A DNA stretch of 54,196 nucleotides, from positions 1 to 54,196 of IMG/VR virus record IMGVR_UViG_3300045741_000133; one strand, given 5' to 3'. Source of the DNA: a virus. This document shows positions 3,857 through 48,498 of this stretch, piece by piece. The first letter of the stretch is position 1. The number at the start of each line of letters is the position of its first letter. Below the pieces are notes generated by a model, which worked only from the letters and a program-made list of their open reading frames with translations, was not told where the DNA came from and did not search any database. Made by a program: the position numbers and the translations under genes.

Positions 3857-4441
3857 TTACTCTCCGTCTCTAGGCTTCTTAGCGAACAAATCGTTGAAGT
3901 CGGCATCGATAACGTTCGAGTCAAGCTTCTCAACATCCTTGGGCTTGTTGATGATGTCGTCGATCTGAGCCAGGGCTTGCTTCAAGCCCTCAGACAGCGT
4001 AAACGCTTCCTTGAGCGCTGAGATCTCGTGACTTAAGTTGGGGATCTTGATCTGCATGGGTATGCCGTTCACATCGTTGAGGATCTCGCCCGTGATCGGG
4101 TGGATCTTGTAGAAGTGACCGTGCTTGGCGAAGTAGCCCACGTAGTCTTGGAGCTGGGTCTCGATCTGGATGATGCGCATCCGCTTGAACTGGTTGTCGA
4201 GGTTCATCAGCTTCTCGGCCTGAGACAGCTGAATGTTCTGAAGCTCGGCCAGGCCGTGCTTGATGTAGGCGATCCTTAGCTCGTTGAGTCTGCCCTCAGT
4301 TATGATAGATTCAACAACGGGGACTGGTAAGTTGAACTTCTTCGACAGGTCAATAGCAGATAAGCCCTCAACAATAAAGGCGTTTCTTACAGCTTCGAGG
4401 GCTTGTGGGGCTGGTAAGTTTGACTCTTCTGAATCTGACAT
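3857..4441 (-). CDS. Probable terminase small subunit
   Basis: A 194-residue protein encoded directly upstream of terL. Residues 12-52 look like a helix-turn-helix (AFIVEGLSAIDLSKKFNLPV, then a recognition-like helix), followed by a long helical, oligomerisation-type middle region. That is the usual plan of small terminases, which recognise packaging sites and regulate TerL. The start ATG at 4441 has GGAG upstream and lies about 20 bases after a TATAAT box. Sequence similarity of small terminases is low, so the call depends mostly on position and the HTH. Confidence 0.65.
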   Translation of the reverse strand: MSDSEESNLPAPQALEAVRNAFIVEGLSAIDLSKKFNLPVPVVESIITEGRLNELRIAYIKHGLAELQNIQLSQAEKLMNLDNQFKRMRIIQIETQLQDYVGYFAKHGHFYKIHPITGEILNDVNGIPMQIKIPNLSHEISALKEAFTLSEGLKQALAQIDDIINKPKDVEKLDSNVIDADFNDLFAKKPRDGE

Positions 4442-18099: not shown

Positions 18100-18115
18100 T
18101 GGTCAGGTGAACTGA

Positions 18116-19893
18116 TTAGTCGTTGAGGCGCCACTCACCATAGATGTTGGTGATAAGCTGTCTAGAACCATCCCGGTGCTGGATAAGGTGCGTCTTAGTC
18201 CAACCAGACGGTCCATCATTATATGATAACTGAAGCTCGGTAGCTGTACCAACTCGGAACACTGATCGGAAGATCGCGGCAGAGTGGTTATGCCCCACGT
18301 TGGAGGCACCGTAGCACTCTTCGATCTCGGCCATTCATGGGCTCCGTTCTCGATACCATTGACTTTGAACGAGTCGTTGATGCTGAGGAACTTAACCTTG
18401 TCAGGTTGCTCAAGCCCGAAGAGCTCGCGCATAGCATACTCGAACGGCATGAGCTCTTGCTCTTCCATGGCGATGTTTAACTTCATGGCCATGATCTTGT
18501 TCATCGGTTCCTTCATGAACTGGCCGTCAGCGATGTAGCGCTTAAGGAAGTCCTCGTGGTTGCCGTACTTAAGAACGATCTGCTGAGCTGGCCAAGCACA
18601 AATGTCGTCAATCTCCTTGCGGCAAGCTTCTAGCTCCATCTCAAGAGATAGAAGACCCTTCTTAGACTTTTGTGACAAAGCTACTAGATTGTTTCGCTCG
18701 TGGGGATTGATGGTGATACCGTCAAAGAAGTCTTCAAAGGTAACGACGTCCGGCTTAACAGCTTCAACGATCTCCTTAGCCATCCTCTTAGCGTCTTTGC
18801 AGGTCGATAGAACGTGCCAGTCACCGGTCTGAACTAGGTCAGCGGTGATCTTGTCTACGGTTCCGTCAGCGTTGTACTTCTTATCGATGTCAGAGAATGA
18901 GCCAGTCTTTGCGTTGATCTGAACCACACGCGAGAAGAAGATACGGCCGTTCTTGATCTCAACGATGACGCCGCCGAGAGTATGATCTAGCTCAGCGAGG
19001 GACGCAGTTCTCTCAGACATGTACATCTCAGTCGCGTAGTTAGCTACGGTGATAGCACCGGTAGACATCAGCGCTCGCGGGATCTCAGTCTTGTTGTTCG
19101 AGTTTGCTACGTACTCAAGGAACTGCTTCGGAGATGCTACGATAGTAGAACCTTTCTTCTGAGAAAGGCGCTTCATACCGGTAAGTGGTTGAAGCTGCTT
19201 AGCGCTCATCTTGATGGTGGAAAGAACGAGGTTATCGTTGAGCGATACGTCCTTGAAGACGATAGACTTCTTAGGAAGCTTAGGTGACAGCGTCCACTTG
19301 TTCTTATGCTCTTTCTGATGCGCTGGATCCGAGCAAGGGAGAATCAAGAGCATGGCTTTGTTCTTCTTACAGAATGTCTGAACCGCAGCGAGAGCGTCGT
19401 CGTGCACGTCGCATCCAGTGACCGCGGTCGTGATGAAGAACCTGTTGTGGTTCGAGATGTTGGCGCGAAGTTCTCTGAAAGCTTCGTCGGTAAAAGACGA
19501 CTCATCGATGATGTTTCTAAATGCTTTCGGATCCTTCTTTTTTGAAGCTTCAACCAGCCCGTCGAAGTTGCCAAAGTGCTTAACTATGGTCTCAGCGTGG
19601 AACGTAGAGTGACGCAAGAACTCAGCTAAGATTGGAACATACTTACGTTGGGAAACCAACGCGAGAAGATCAGAAATCATGCGAGCTTGCATGATGTCCG
19701 CTTTTACCTCAGCGCTGCTCTTGAGAGACTTAAGGTCATACTCACCTTTGTACCGTCGATAGATGGCCTCGAGAGCACTCGTAGACTTCTTGATCCCGAA
19801 CTTCTTAGCGAAGTTGATCGAGATCTCGCCGTATGTTTTACCTTGTTTTCTGCCGTTTATGATGAAGTCTATATGTGATCGTTTGGTAGCCAT
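18116..19893 (-). CDS. Large metallophosphoesterase, C-terminus split by a frameshift
   Basis: From ATG 19893 (AAGGA upstream; the ATG six bases earlier is less well placed) a long frame encodes an HTH-like N-terminus (YGEISINFAKKFGI), then a metallophosphoesterase domain: TGDWHVLS, FEDFFDGITINPHER and LKYGNHEDFL. Around 18334-18339 the coding potential moves to another frame. There, 72 residues carry the expected last metal motif VGHNHSAAIF and a domain end (GPSGWTKTHLIQ, LITNIYGEWRLND) stopping at 18116. The original frame continues to 18103 as nonsense. A one-base loss (GGAATGG to GAATGG) would explain it; a sequencing error is possible. Confidence 0.75.
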
Positions 19894-19938
19894 GGCCATC
19901 CTTCGTTACTCCCTACCCCCGGCAGTAGAGAGATTATA

Positions 19939-22982: not shown

Positions 22983-24605
22983 TCATTTTGGATTAACGTA
23001 GACGATGGCTCCGCCAGCGGTGGACAGCAGCCCCGCGATGGAGACCGCGTTCTCGAGAGCGGTCCTCGTGACCTTGACGGGATCGATGATCCCTGCGGTG
23101 AGGGCTCGAACGACCTCGCGGTTGCGCGCGTCGTAGACGAGTGACTTACCTTGTTGAACTCGAACCGCGCACTCGGCGGCTTGACTCTCTGTGTAGCCGA
23201 TGTTCTCGAGGATCTGAAAGAACGGTGCTTGGAGAGCTTGGCGAAGGATCTGGTGACCGACTGACTTTCCTGGGATGCTCCTAGCGATGCGAAGTAGAGT
23301 CGAACCTCCGCCGGGGATGACGCCTTCCTGGAGAGCCGCGCGAGCCGCGTTAAGCGCGTCCTCGATACGGTCGTACTTCTCCTTGATCTCGAACTCAGTG
23401 ACTCCACCCACACCAATCTTGGCGATGCCCGAGGTCAGGGCAGCGATTCGGTCGTTTAAGACCTGAGCGTCGTACGGCGACTCGGCTCGCTCCTTAGCGG
23501 CCTTGAGCTGGTCAACGCGCTCGAGGATGTCGTCCTCAACGCCTTGACCGTCGTAAAGTGTAGTCTTGTACTTGTCAACGACCACCCGGCTGACGAGCCC
23601 GATGTCCGCCTCCTCGATCGACTCGAGGTTGCGGGCGCCGTTCCCGAGGCGGGTGCCTCCGGAGTAAGCCGCGAGGTCGTCGTAGTATCCTGTACGGACA
23701 TGGGTGGTGTGAGGTCCGGTGACCGGAACCACTACCATACCAGCTTGGTCCTTCTGGATGAGGAGAAACTGGAGAACCTCCGGAGAGAACTCGTTCGCGA
23801 GGATCATGATCGGAGGCATCTTCTTGGTGGGTTGCTCGGTTCCTGGCTCCACACCTGCGAGTATGCGGAACGCCGGGATCAGCTGGGTGTAGCTGATGAG
23901 TCTTCCGTCGTACACGATGAGAGCTACGTCCTGAGCCTCGAACTGGGTGTTCTCACGGTTGTTAAAGAAAGCATTTCGCCCCTCAGCTCCCCGCTGGAAC
24001 TGGTAGCCGTCGACCTTGTCTAGGGTGACTCGGTTGGTGTGACCCTCGTCGACGGTGACTACACCCTCAGCTCCTACGTGGTCGAAGGCGGCAGATATGA
24101 TGCTGCCGATCTCCTCGTCCCCGTTGGCTGAGATCGTGGCTACCTGGTGGATCATCTTGGTGGACTTGACCGGGATCGCGAGCTTCTTGAGCGCCTTGGC
24201 CACGTCCTTAGCGGCGACCTCGATCGACTCCTTGACGAGCTGCGGGTTCAGGGAGGAGTTTTCAGCGAGGACCTTCTCGGTCTCCTTGACGATCGCCTCT
24301 CCTAGGACGATGGCGGTGGTGGTTCCGTCGCCAGCTACCGTGACCGTCTTTCGGCATATACCCTTGACGGCTTGGATGACGATGTCCTCTTCCTCGTTGG
24401 GCGAGGAGCACTCGTCCGCTACGGACACGCCGTCCTTCGTGATCTTGGGTCCGAGGGGCGTTCCCTCTAAGGTTTGTCCTAGTCGACCGAGGATGATGGG
24501 AAGTCCACCAGGTCCTAGAGTTCTCTTAACGATACCCGCGATCTGAGAGAGTCCAGCCAGCTTCGGCTTCATGAGCTCTTCTCGTGTGACGATCTTCTTC
24601 TGCAC
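22983..24605 (-). CDS. groEL: Chaperonin GroEL
   Basis: 540 residues from GTG 24605 with GGAGG five bases upstream. Nucleotide-site motifs are present: TLGPGG near residue 29, TKDGVSVA, and AGDGTTTAIVLG around residue 90; later GGGSTLL. It lacks the Gly-Gly-Met tail of bacterial GroEL. It should form a folding chamber, perhaps for phage proteins, working with a host or phage co-chaperonin; no GroES gene is in this window. It has its own upstream spacer and downstream terminator. Its bases look more GC-rich than the neighbours. Divergence from typical GroEL suggests a phage lineage rather than recent capture. Confidence 0.95.
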   Translation of the reverse strand: MQKKIVTREELMKPKLAGLSQIAGIVKRTLGPGGLPIILGRLGQTLEGTPLGPKITKDGVSVADECSSPNEEEDIVIQAVKGICRKTVTVAGDGTTTAIVLGEAIVKETEKVLAENSSLNPQLVKESIEVAAKDVAKALKKLAIPVKSTKMIHQVATISANGDEEIGSIISAAFDHVGAEGVVTVDEGHTNRVTLDKVDGYQFQRGAEGRNAFFNNRENTQFEAQDVALIVYDGRLISYTQLIPAFRILAGVEPGTEQPTKKMPPIMILANEFSPEVLQFLLIQKDQAGMVVVPVTGPHTTHVRTGYYDDLAAYSGGTRLGNGARNLESIEEADIGLVSRVVVDKYKTTLYDGQGVEDDILERVDQLKAAKERAESPYDAQVLNDRIAALTSGIAKIGVGGVTEFEIKEKYDRIEDALNAARAALQEGVIPGGGSTLLRIARSIPGKSVGHQILRQALQAPFFQILENIGYTESQAAECAVRVQQGKSLVYDARNREVVRALTAGIIDPVKVTRTALENAVSIAGLLSTAGGAIVYVNPK

Positions 24606-31554: not shown

Positions 31555-31775
31555 CGAAGATAACCTCGCAGATAAAGAAGCTTAGTACCGGAGTCTGGTT
31601 TACGTACCCGGACGGTCTCATCTTTAGAACAAATCCAAACGACAACCGATTCATAGCTAAGCACCTAGACGTTGCAGTCCTCAAGAAGGCGACGATATCT
31701 ATCGTAGTTCGGGAGGACAGCGAGCTGCTTAGCGTAGCTTTTCGAGGAGCAGACCATGCTAAATCGTATTATTGA
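31551..31775 (+). CDS. Small unknown protein
   Basis: 74 residues, start overlapping the ligase stop (ATGA) with GGGAGG upstream. Beta-rich by eye (TGVWFTYPDGLIFRTN, ATISIVVREDSELLSVAF). It overlaps the next gene by 20 bases. No function recognised. Confidence 0.6.
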   Translation: MTKITSQIKKLSTGVWFTYPDGLIFRTNPNDNRFIAKHLDVAVLKKATISIVVREDSELLSVAFRGADHAKSYY

Positions 31776-32328
31776 GAAGATAGTTCAGGCCTTGATCAGG
31801 TCGTGCGTAAAACGCGGGAAGATGTTTAAGATCACTGGAGAGCCTTCTCAGAAGGAAGACGTCTACTTAGTTAGGTACGTCGTCTTCAAGACCAGGTTCT
31901 TGTCGCTCTACATCCACCGATTCATGAGGTCTGACTCATCTGATCCACACGACCATCCCTGGAACTTCTTCACGTACGTAGTTTCTGGGTCATATAAAGA
32001 ACACTTCTACGACACGATGAAGCCTCGCGAGCGCAAGGACTACTTCTTCACCGCTAGCAAGAAGCGTCAGTTCACCTCGCTGTGGACTCCTAAGATCAAC
32101 ATCCGCAAAGCAGGCTCGCTCGCGTACCGAAGAGCCGAAGACATCCACTGGGTAGAGACCGATAAGGTTAGATCCATCTGGGAGATCAACGAGGCGCCAC
32201 TCACGATCTGCTTGATCTTGCGCCGCCGTCGAAGATGGGGTTTTTGGACCTCTAGTCATACTTTCGTTGATTGGCGCAAATTCCTTAAGGTTAGGCCGAA
32301 CGATCCCCGAATCGAGGGAGCCGAGTAG
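31756..32328 (+). CDS. Cupin-like phage protein
   Basis: 190 residues with GAGGAG before the ATG. A segment DPHDHPWNFFTYVVSGSYKE, preceded by an IHRFMRSD strand and followed by hydrophobic strands, has the HxH...G layout of a cupin barrel with metal-binding histidines. Many phages carry similar cupin-like proteins of unknown substrate. A basic run (LRRRRRWGFW) lies near the C-terminus. Confidence 0.6.
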   Translation: MLNRIIEKIVQALIRSCVKRGKMFKITGEPSQKEDVYLVRYVVFKTRFLSLYIHRFMRSDSSDPHDHPWNFFTYVVSGSYKEHFYDTMKPRERKDYFFTASKKRQFTSLWTPKINIRKAGSLAYRRAEDIHWVETDKVRSIWEINEAPLTICLILRRRRRWGFWTSSHTFVDWRKFLKVRPNDPRIEGAE

Positions 32329-33457: not shown

Positions 33458-33680
33458 CAAACAAGTCGAGCTGTTCGACAACTGGTTCAAGGTTAAGATG
33501 ATGTCTCGCGTCATAAAGAACGATAGTCAACAGGTCGAGTACGCGTACATCGACGCGAAGGACGCAGACGCTGCGAAAGCTAGAGCCATAGCTTCCGCGG
33601 GACCTGGGTGGATCGCGAAGATAAAGCCCATCTCTTACCGACAGATGATCAAGGAGATCTCGTGCGAGCGATCTTACTGA
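33447..33680 (+). CDS. Small unknown protein
   Basis: 77 residues with GGGGGAACA before the ATG. A strand region (WFKVKMMSRVIKND, VEYAYIDAKDADAAKARAIA) and a short C-terminal helix. The last bases overlap the matrixin-like gene start. No function recognised. Confidence 0.6.
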   Translation: MRNNKQVELFDNWFKVKMMSRVIKNDSQQVEYAYIDAKDADAAKARAIASAGPGWIAKIKPISYRQMIKEISCERSY

Positions 33681-34210
33681 TCCTGCTCGTAGCTGGCTTT
33701 GGGTGCTGTAGACCTCCGTCGGAGCCCGACTGTGGGTTCGTACAAAACGAGTACTCACGCAGAGTATCATGGCCAAAGCATCCCGTCTCGTTCACGATCG
33801 ATGCTTCTGCTAAGGCATACGAGTCTGGCATCCGCTTCGCAGCCAGCGAGTGGAACCGTCAATCGGGAAGAACCTTGTTTCGAGAGGTAAGCCCTGATGT
33901 ACCTGCCGACATTATCATATTCGTCCTATCCCCGTGGGACGGGCTCGCAAGTGAGGAAGCTAGAACAACCATCTATTTTTCAGACGATAACATCAACCAC
34001 GCTCTCATTAAGATAAACCCTCAGTACGCGTTCTACAACGGTCCGTATGGCTTCGGGGTATCGATGGACTCGCTGATGATCCACGAATTAGGACACGCTC
34101 TAGGTCTCGCGCACCATCCAGGAACCGTGATGAACCCGTTGCTTGCGGAAGGCGAGTATCGCATCACTTTGAGTCAGCACGAGCTCGACGCCATGGCGTG
34201 CGAGTACTAA
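33662..34210 (+). CDS. Exported matrixin-like zinc metalloprotease
   Basis: 182 residues from GTG 33662, chosen because AAGGAG lies five bases upstream. The N-terminus is a signal peptide (ILLILLVAGFG) followed by two cysteines, perhaps a lipoprotein site though not a perfect lipobox. The catalytic zinc motif is HELGHALGLAHH, followed by a Met-turn-like GTVMNPLL. It would act in the periplasm or at the surface, perhaps during infection, release or superinfection exclusion. Such proteases are uncommon in phages. Confidence 0.75.
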   Translation: MRAILLILLVAGFGCCRPPSEPDCGFVQNEYSRRVSWPKHPVSFTIDASAKAYESGIRFAASEWNRQSGRTLFREVSPDVPADIIIFVLSPWDGLASEEARTTIYFSDDNINHALIKINPQYAFYNGPYGFGVSMDSLMIHELGHALGLAHHPGTVMNPLLAEGEYRITLSQHELDAMACEY

Positions 34211-34315: not shown

Positions 34316-35032
34316 ATGAAGAACGTTATCGGAAATCAAAGAGGAATGAGCCTGATCGGAGTCGTGGTCGCCATGGGTATCATGGGTATCTTAATGATGG
34401 TGCTCGCGGACATGACGGTGATGATGACCAAGAACAACACCACCGCGCTAGCTAACTCGGACATCTTGGCTTACGTTAACCAGATTCGCAGCAACATCCA
34501 AGATCCTATGCGAGCTACGACGATGCTAGCTGGAAATCAGACTACTGGCGCCGTCGTAGTCAACGATCCGCTGGTGTCAGGAACTATCTTAGCTCAGGCC
34601 GGGATGAAGCCGAACAACGCGGTAGCTTGGAGCATTAAGCGCGTTGGTTTCGAGAACGTTCTTCCCGCCGGCGCTACCGGCTTGTATAGATTGACGCTGG
34701 TCTTGATCACCGAGAAGACTCAAGGAATGGTCATCGGGCCCACGATCGCTCGCCGCGTAGTAGGTGACGTGTACTGCTTCGTAGCTTCTAACGTGATCAC
34801 GACTTGCACCGGTGGAACCGATCCTGTAGCTCAGGCAAAGGTTCAGTGTCAAGCTCTGGGTGGAACCTGGGTCGACGCCGCAGCTTTCGGAAGTCAGTGC
34901 ACCCTCAGACTCCCAGCCTCAACCGGCGGCGGAGATGATGACAAGGACAAAGGCGACCACAACCATGACGGACACGAAGACAACGGTCACGGTTCATACG
35001 GTAACTCTAACGGTCACCCCTGCAACCACTAA
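34316..35032 (+). CDS. Type IV prepilin-like protein
   Basis: 238 residues with AAAGGAG before the ATG. The N-terminus has a prepilin-peptidase site: a short basic leader, NQRG, then MSLIGVVVAMGIMGILMMVL, a 20-residue hydrophobic helix. Position 5 after the cut is Gly, not the usual Glu, as in some minor pilins. The globular part has several cysteines (YCFVASNVITTC, KVQCQALG). The C-terminal 30 residues are Asp-, His- and Gly-rich, suggesting metal binding. It may enter the host pilus or secretion machinery. Similar leaders are common in Bdellovibrio-like bacteria. Confidence 0.75.
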   Translation: MKNVIGNQRGMSLIGVVVAMGIMGILMMVLADMTVMMTKNNTTALANSDILAYVNQIRSNIQDPMRATTMLAGNQTTGAVVVNDPLVSGTILAQAGMKPNNAVAWSIKRVGFENVLPAGATGLYRLTLVLITEKTQGMVIGPTIARRVVGDVYCFVASNVITTCTGGTDPVAQAKVQCQALGGTWVDAAAFGSQCTLRLPASTGGGDDDKDKGDHNHDGHEDNGHGSYGNSNGHPCNH

Positions 35033-46646: not shown

Positions 46647-46723
46647 GATAACGCAACTTTAGCGCGTTACTCGGTCATGAAGAACACATAACTGGTCGAG
46701 GTTTGCTTACTAGGAGTTCTACG

Positions 46724-47722
46724 GTGAAAGCTCTAATCAGATGGAGTCTGTTCTTAACGGTAGGACTCTTGTTTCAAGTTCTGATCTACGTCGTCTATCC
46801 ACTCGCTTGGTTGTACTGGCGACTCAAGGTCTACTCTAAGCCAGGCGACAAGACAGTGTCCGAGCACGAGAGCATCTCTGGCTTTCGCGAGAAGCGAGAG
46901 CCTTACGGGATGTACCTCAACACTATCGATGATCACGCCTCGTTCTGCATGTATGGAGCTTTGACTACTCTAGCTCTAGAGCTGCTGGTTCAAGAAGGTA
47001 GCGTCGTTCGTCGAGTCAACGAGGACAAGACACTGAACCGATGGTCGGTATCAGGCGATGTCATCATATCGTGGTGCCTATCGTTCACGTATCCTAAGAT
47101 CGATCAGCGAGACCTAGTTCCGGCTCTCTTGGAGCTCGCGAACTCTTACCTGAAGTACCTAGGTACTAGATCCTGGGACGAGATCAACGACGGAGACGTC
47201 AGCAACCGATGCAACAACTTCGGTGTAAACTACTGTCCTGACTCAGATTTTCATAAGATAGGTCAGCCCGCGACGGGTCCTCAGTTCTACACCTCTTCAG
47301 CCTTGTTCGCGCTTGCCAGCAAGTACTCCTGGAAGTTCAAGATCGTGTTCTGGCTGCACTGGATCATCATGGGTGGTTGGTATTGGTGGTTCGCTCCAGC
47401 CTTGTGGACTAAGGATCGTCAGCTGGTGTACGTTCGAGACATGACGATGAGAGCGTTGTACGTCCATAAGTTCGTGTTCGGTGATCGCTGGTGGATCCGA
47501 AAGCCGATGGAGTGGATCGCTTTCAAGACCACGGATCGTAGGAACGATCTTTGGTACGCGATGCTGGGTATCAACCCCATCCGCGAGCTTCCGGCAGCTA
47601 TGGACGGGTTCTTCTCTCAGAAAGAGGACTTCACGTCAAGGATGAGCGATCGAATGAACGGTTACTACGGAGAAGCAATCTACAATCTAGCAGAGCAAGC
47701 TAGAATGCTTAACAAGAGGTGA
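46724..47722 (+). CDS. Large membrane-associated unknown protein
   Basis: 332 residues from GTG 46724 with AGGAG seven bases upstream (an earlier in-frame start at 46703 lacks a site). Residues 6-30 form a transmembrane helix (WSLFLTVGLLFQVLIYVVYP), and another hydrophobic aromatic region lies near residue 205 (FWLHWIIMGGWYWWFAPALW). The rest is soluble. No family recognised. Confidence 0.7.
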   Translation: MKALIRWSLFLTVGLLFQVLIYVVYPLAWLYWRLKVYSKPGDKTVSEHESISGFREKREPYGMYLNTIDDHASFCMYGALTTLALELLVQEGSVVRRVNEDKTLNRWSVSGDVIISWCLSFTYPKIDQRDLVPALLELANSYLKYLGTRSWDEINDGDVSNRCNNFGVNYCPDSDFHKIGQPATGPQFYTSSALFALASKYSWKFKIVFWLHWIIMGGWYWWFAPALWTKDRQLVYVRDMTMRALYVHKFVFGDRWWIRKPMEWIAFKTTDRRNDLWYAMLGINPIRELPAAMDGFFSQKEDFTSRMSDRMNGYYGEAIYNLAEQARMLNKR

Positions 47723-47725
47723 TTC

Positions 47726-47773
47726 ATGGACGAAGAAGTGAGCGATGTTCTTAAAGTAAAGGTGGTTCCATAG
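47726..47773 (+). CDS. Possible 15-residue peptide
   Basis: ATG 47726 has AGAGGTGATTC upstream and encodes MDEEVSDVLKVKVVP. The ribosome-binding site is good but the peptide is too short to judge; it may be a leader or chance. Confidence 0.25.
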   Translation: MDEEVSDVLKVKVVP

Positions 47774-47933
47774 CGGTGTGTCGACCGGACCGAATGGGCC
47801 ATAAAAATCGAGATGCGGGTTTTGGCGCTCCCGAAAAGCACTGAATGAGACGCTTACGGACACCGTTGCAACAGGACCGTGGGGTCAGCGAGGTGAAAGA
47901 CTCGTTACTTAGTATCTTGGTTCTTAGGATAGC
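47774..47933 (+). other. Non-coding stretch with possible structured RNA
   Basis: No supported gene. CGGTGT (47774-47779) pairs with ACACCG (47860-47865), enclosing about 80 bases that include smaller possible helices such as GGG...CCC around 47817-47832. It leads straight into the interrupted tRNA. It might be part of a longer non-coding transcript. Confidence 0.35.
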
Positions 47934-48053
47934 ACAGAGGTAGCTTAACGGGTAAAGCCCGTCATTGGAAGGCTGAGACGCTCGAGTCGGACCTCAAACG
48001 TAGGAGCAGATCACGCTGGACGGAGATTGTGCGTTCGAGTCGCACCCTCTGCC
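47934..48053 (+). tRNA. tRNA gene interrupted in the anticodon loop
   Basis: All cloverleaf arms are present. Acceptor ACAGAGG/CCTCTGC (six of seven pairs), then T8 and A9. D-arm GCTT-AACGGGTA-AAGC. Anticodon stem CCGTC (47959-47963) with GACGG (48019-48023). Five-base variable loop AGATT. T-arm GTGCG-TTCGAGT-CGCAC. The anticodon loop, however, is 55 bases instead of 7, so about 48 extra bases sit inside it. If the junction is at the canonical 37/38 site the anticodon would be TGG (Pro), but this is not certain. No CCA is encoded, the first acceptor pair is A-C, and position 26 is missing. It could be an intron-bearing, disrupted or decoy tRNA. Confidence 0.65.
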
Positions 48054-48063
48054 TAAGTTTTCT

Positions 48064-48498
48064 TCAAGGCTTGAACCATCTGGTTCCGCCTGGCTTGTAT
48101 GACCCAAACGGTTGGTTCTGGAAGTGGACCCAGTTTAGGTTGCCGTCCTCGCAGAATAGATTAGCTTCCTCAAGGGCTGCCTGACCCTCAGGAGTGTTCT
48201 TCATCCACTTAGTCAAGGCTAGAACTGGGTCTGCGATGTCTACGGCGGCTGCGCTCGTCACGTTCTCGAGATGCTTGGACTTCATAGGGATCTTCGATTG
48301 ATCGGTGATGCCCTTCTGAGCGTAGATTCGTAAGTGATCCTTAAGCGTGCGAACTCCAGAAGTAACGCTCATAGCCTTACCCCACTTAGCGCGGATGATG
48401 TTCACCCGATCGGTGAGGTCTTGGCACTGCTCGAGCTTCTTAGGATCGAGAGCAGACTCGTCGATGTCGGTGTGGATGATCTCCTTGAGCGTCATCAT
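48064..48498 (-). CDS. M15-type peptidase (endolysin-like)
   Basis: 144 residues. The VanY/M15 zinc-peptidase layout is visible: SVTSGVRTLKDH, then SKHLENVTSAAAVDIAD with His and Asp zinc ligands, and WVHFQ with the last His. Such phage enzymes cut peptide cross-links of peptidoglycan. No signal peptide, so a holin would be needed for release. Two ATGs in tandem; the second (48495) overlaps the next stop. Confidence 0.8.
   Translation of the reverse strand: MMTLKEIIHTDIDESALDPKKLEQCQDLTDRVNIIRAKWGKAMSVTSGVRTLKDHLRIYAQKGITDQSKIPMKSKHLENVTSAAAVDIADPVLALTKWMKNTPEGQAALEEANLFCEDGNLNWVHFQNQPFGSYKPGGTRWFKP

Follow-up and report, generated by a model that had tools for sequence, protein, structure and literature searches.

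A phage proline-type tRNA gene interrupted by 48 nucleotides in its anticodon loop, probably a disrupted pseudogene

Degenerate tRNA genes are well documented in phages, among them those of CBA120 (PMC3184105) and of T4-like phages (PMC1524935). In Sulfitobacter phage phiCB2047-B (L021) two of the tRNAs are flagged as pseudogenes. To our knowledge, protein-based splicing of tRNAs is not known in bacteria. Bacterial group I introns of the anticodon loop are found in cyanobacterial tRNA-Leu and proteobacterial tRNA-Arg, and measure roughly 200–300 nt or more. The introns of archaeal and eukaryotic tRNAs range from 11 to 129 nt and from 6 to 133 nt, respectively (PMC4090602). According to a 2014 review, every group I intron observed in a phage by then lay in a protein gene (PMC3984707), and our search of the literature found no paper on a phage tRNA with a short intron.

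The element discussed here was first described, in an earlier note made from the letters alone, as a tRNA gene at 47934-48053 with about 48 extra bases in its anticodon loop, lying in a stretch of viral DNA of 54,196 bp, the whole of which was analysed and is called the window below. This description holds. The Rfam tRNA model RF00005 covers exactly 47934-48053 on the plus strand, and the covariance-model check that the note had proposed thus came out above the gathering score, at 34.8 bits against 29 (E = 0.0013 across all Rfam families, 3e-7 for this family alone in this genome). In intron mode ARAGORN calls exactly one gene, a tRNA-Pro(tgg) in which positions 47971-48018 form a 48-nt insert, and in its default mode, which allows no introns, it reports zero tRNAs in the window. 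RF00005 is also the sole RNA family with a match in the window, and these single calls bear out the further statement that no other tRNA is present. Because the intron mode of ARAGORN also makes false calls on 200 dinucleotide shuffles of the window (3 with inserts of up to 100 nt, 13 with inserts of up to 3000 nt), the identification rests mainly on the covariance model, with ARAGORN as modest support. A reading of the element as two complete overlapping tRNAs was rejected, as ARAGORN run without introns at a low threshold gave poor alternatives only. Judged by its sequence, the element is a genuine tRNA gene of a phage, for which ARAGORN reads a Pro-like UGG anticodon, and its resemblance to tRNA is far beyond chance. 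Its parts and setting are as follows.

47723..48063, no strand: gap of 341 bp separating two convergent genes, free of ORFs of at least 100 aa and with the tRNA element as its only content
47934..48053, plus strand: tRNA gene resembling tRNA-Pro(UGG) when the joint is placed after ATTGGAA, anticodon loop interrupted (Rfam RF00005, ARAGORN intron mode)
47934..47970, plus strand: 5′ half, with acceptor strand ACAGAGG (47934-47940), U8 and A9, D-arm (47943-47958), anticodon stem CCGTC (47959-47963) and loop ATTGGAA (47964-47970) (sequence, Rfam alignment)
47971..48018, plus strand: insert of 48 nt, GGCTGAGACGCTCGAGTCGGACCTCAAACGTAGGAGCAGATCACGCTG, whose exact junctions in the loop are ambiguous (ARAGORN)
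47979..47993, plus strand: T-arm-like stretch CGCTCGAGTCGGACC within the insert, 13/15 identical to 48032-48046
48019..48053, plus strand: 3′ half, with anticodon stem GACGG (48019-48023), variable loop AGATT, T-arm GTGCG-TTCGAGT-CGCAC (48029-48045), acceptor strand CCTCTGC (48046-48052) and C as base 73 (48053) (sequence, Rfam alignment)

The convergent genes that flank the element lie at 46703-47722 (plus strand) and 48064-48498 (minus strand). Six of the seven acceptor pairs can form, the exception being A1-C72, together with all four pairs of the D-stem, all five of the anticodon stem (CCGTC/GACGG) and all five of the T-stem; the variable loop has 5 nt, and the sequence permits the tertiary contacts U8-A14, A15-U48, G18/G19 with the T-loop, and T54-A58. 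As the stems and contacts that bridge the 5′ and 3′ halves are intact, both halves belong to one tRNA. The 5-base anticodon stem, the 5-nt variable loop and the T-arm were all described correctly in the earlier note, and its claim that every other arm is canonical stands for most of them, but not for the first acceptor pair, which is A-C, nor for base 26, which is missing in the Rfam alignment, nor for the 3′ end, where base 73 is C and CCA is not encoded. The two strands of the anticodon stem are separated by 55 nt rather than by an uninterrupted 7-nt loop. Several junction points within the loop fit; ARAGORN prints the junction as 37-38 and draws the joint after AUUGGAA, which gives a joined loop with U33 and with a purine at position 37. 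This purine is A37, in a loop carrying a proline anticodon; G37 is usual in proline tRNAs, and A37 is unusual.

The heptamer CGAGTCG, which had been said to occur both in the insert and in the T-arm, does so, and lies in a longer match in which CGCTCGAGTCGGACC of the insert and CGTTCGAGTCGCACC of the gene's own T-arm region are the same at 13 of 15 positions, the insert being the only other such place in the 54-kb window on either strand. An equal alignment score to the tRNA halves was reached by 10 of 1000 shuffled inserts and by 12 of 1000 window segments, and in a version of the T-arm similarity test with a longer reference 144 of 5000 window segments scored as well. A later part of the insert gives a weak colinear match to the 5′ end of the tRNA, with a combined score met by 14 of 1000 shuffles. 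These comparisons are suggestive, not conclusive, of an insert that would be a degenerate piece of tRNA, gained by partial duplication or by recombination between tRNA genes. Of the origins that had been proposed for the extra bases, an insertion is thereby supported, with a tRNA as its source suggested by the shared CGAGTCG. Two observations weigh on the other side: the copy in the insert has degenerated much further than the intact T-arm, something that a simple recent duplication would not predict, and the duplication signal reaches a chance level of only about 1–3%. The predicted fold of the insert is ordinary (−12.1 kcal/mol, against a mean of −12.3 kcal/mol in dinucleotide shuffles, of which 476 of 1000 were as good), and the possibility of a structured insert was discarded on this equality.

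The explanation that we favour, at a probability of about 0.6, is that a phage tRNA gene was split in its anticodon loop by some 48 bp of tRNA-derived DNA and is now a recently disrupted pseudogene. Three features that can be read directly from the locus underlie this explanation, namely the matching tRNA halves, the size of the insert and the T-arm-like stretch within it. The element combines homology to tRNA with damage to the mature fold (the insert, the A1-C72 mismatch and the missing base 26), a combination expected of a tRNA pseudogene. The mismatch, the absent base 26 and A37 fit decay and so count for a pseudogene, as do the shuffle-like fold of the insert and the absence of any preference for the codon that the tRNA would read: CCA makes up 23% of the Pro codons and is not enriched, and a codon demand for CCA was rejected. 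The insert is likely to have come from a partial duplication of the gene's own 3′ half or from recombination with a neighbouring tRNA gene, and the disrupted gene would most likely be non-functional or barely functional. Against a pseudogene stands the intact state of the helices (bar pair 1-72) and of the tertiary contacts; as a dead gene would be expected to lose them in time, it implies that the disruption is recent or that the body is still under selection. We also considered an attP core taken from a host tRNA, and set this aside because no integrase was found in the ORFs scanned and the 24-nt 3′ end had no exact match in genome contigs, exact matching being an insensitive search.

Comparison with relatives gave little purchase on the locus. 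The terminase has relatives in viral contigs that are up to 77% identical, and the flanking genes have relatives there at 69% and 47%; none of these relatives, the contigs that carry homologues of the two flanking genes included, has a tRNA at the corresponding place, no contig found being close enough for a fair test, and among the close relatives found in viral contigs none spans the tRNA locus. Neither the 5′ nor the 3′ tRNA half had an exact match in the viral and genome collections searched, and blastn against named phages returned nothing beyond short and weak matches, lying within other tRNAs or in unrelated genes. A weak ARAGORN call of a 'tRNA-Asp with a 44-nt intron' on a distantly related viral contig (L010) was rejected, being unsupported by Rfam. 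The non-coding region 3900-4100 of that contig contains several clustered T-arm-like hairpins, such as GCTTGG-TTCGATT-CCAAGC at 3982 and GGTGG-TTCGATT-CCACT at 4049, and beyond them, at about 4115-4150, a hairpin and T run like those of a terminator. With no Rfam tRNA in it, this region could represent either a tRNA array that has decayed or a novel structured RNA.

An RNA that works unspliced, as a tRNA-like body with an enlarged anticodon arm that RNase P or the CCA enzyme acts on, or that is a decoy for a host anticodon nuclease, is an unlikely alternative to which some weight may be given. Even with the insert included, the predicted pairing probability of the acceptor stem is 0.99, and the contacts of the body are intact. 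Against this, the cloverleaf is not the preferred free fold of the 120 nt, with pair probabilities of 0.003 for the D-arm, 0.003 for the anticodon stem and 0.09 for the T-arm, and the exact searches of the viral and genome collections described above found no conserved relatives.

A functional tRNA, with a small anticodon-loop intron near the canonical position 37/38 that is cut by some nuclease of the host or the phage and sealed by a ligase, is decidedly unlikely. It has in its favour that the 48 nt and their position fall within the range of archaeal and eukaryotic tRNA introns (PMC4090602), that the insert leaves the tRNA body on its two sides intact, that U33 and a purine at 37 occur in the joined loop, and that keeping the insert apart in a cloverleaf fold costs only 2.3 kcal/mol relative to the free minimum, a gap below that of most shuffled inserts, though not an unusual one (83 of 500 had a gap no larger). 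The earlier suggestion of a novel small intron nevertheless finds no positive support. A scan of the 120 nt found no bulge-helix-bulge using the anticodon stem as its outer helix with a 4-bp helix inside the loop, only chance-like motifs elsewhere, and an intron of that type was rejected; the insert fold is ordinary, A37 is odd for a tRNA-Pro, and Rfam families other than tRNA, introns included, gave no match to the element even at E values up to 10. Family scans of some 50 window ORFs, mostly of at least 100 aa and including genes for DNA replication, nucleotide metabolism, GroEL and tail proteins, revealed no RNA ligase, polynucleotide kinase or tRNA-splicing endonuclease, and no homing endonuclease or integrase. 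The insert thus carries no splicing signature, and what speaks for an intron is its place, its size and the intact tRNA body. The nearest proteins to the GroEL, DNA polymerase and ribonucleotide reductase of this phage come from phages of bacteria, and its sequence gives it the look of a virus that infects bacteria, a further point against splicing by proteins. More doubtful still is a working tRNA whose 48-nt intron, not self-splicing, is taken out in a bacterial host through some new cut-and-ligate route, such as an anticodon nuclease of the host or the phage followed by RNA repair.

Several other genes of the phage deserve mention in their own right. The GroEL-type chaperonin is encoded at 22983-24605 on the minus strand (phrog_5725, E 5e-107; Pfam Cpn60_TCP1), and a protein like the phage 'DNA transfer protein' family at 18103-19899, also on the minus strand (phrog_1745, E 4e-55), the latter presumably recalling the two-step DNA injection of T5. 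A cysteine dioxygenase-like gene at 31756-32328 on the plus strand (phrog_4786) is an unusual auxiliary metabolic gene for a phage. At 34316-35032 and 33608-34210, both on the plus strand, a protein whose N-terminal methylation motif resembles that of type IV pilins (PF07963) adjoins one with a matrixin-like metalloprotease domain (PF00413), both of them odd in a phage.

That the locus is a chance resemblance or an error of assembly is very improbable. The misfires of ARAGORN amount to 1.5–6.5% of shuffles and the record is an environmental virus contig, assembled from a metagenome, but chance as the origin of the tRNA signal is ruled out by the Rfam E value of 3e-7, alongside the intact tertiary signature, and a 48-nt error falling precisely within a 7-nt loop would be improbable. 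Least probable of all is a remnant of a group I or other self-splicing intron, since, although bacterial tRNA group I introns do occupy the anticodon region (PMC4090602), the insert is, as the earlier note had observed, too short at 48 nt for a core that is usually >200 nt, Rfam offers no match to an intron or other known RNA, and the phage group I introns known as of 2014 were not in tRNA genes.

Were the insert removed in the cell, this would be protein-type tRNA splicing in a bacterial virus, which would be remarkable; if the gene is a pseudogene, it shows cleanly how a tRNA gene of a phage can be broken, the sequence that broke it being apparently derived from a tRNA. In size and, as far as its ambiguous junctions allow, in place the insert resembles the protein-spliced introns found at 37/38 in archaeal and eukaryotic tRNAs, but the bulge-helix-bulge that is the archaeal hallmark is absent from the loop, the virus is apparently one of bacteria and no splicing enzyme was seen in the ORFs scanned. 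With the group I introns of bacterial tRNAs it shares a position in the anticodon region, whereas those introns have a conserved catalytic core and the 48 nt here have none. Like the degenerate tRNA genes of CBA120 and the T4-like phages, the gene is a recognisable yet flawed phage tRNA, and it differs from them in that a single clean insert interrupts the anticodon loop while the rest of the body is near-intact.
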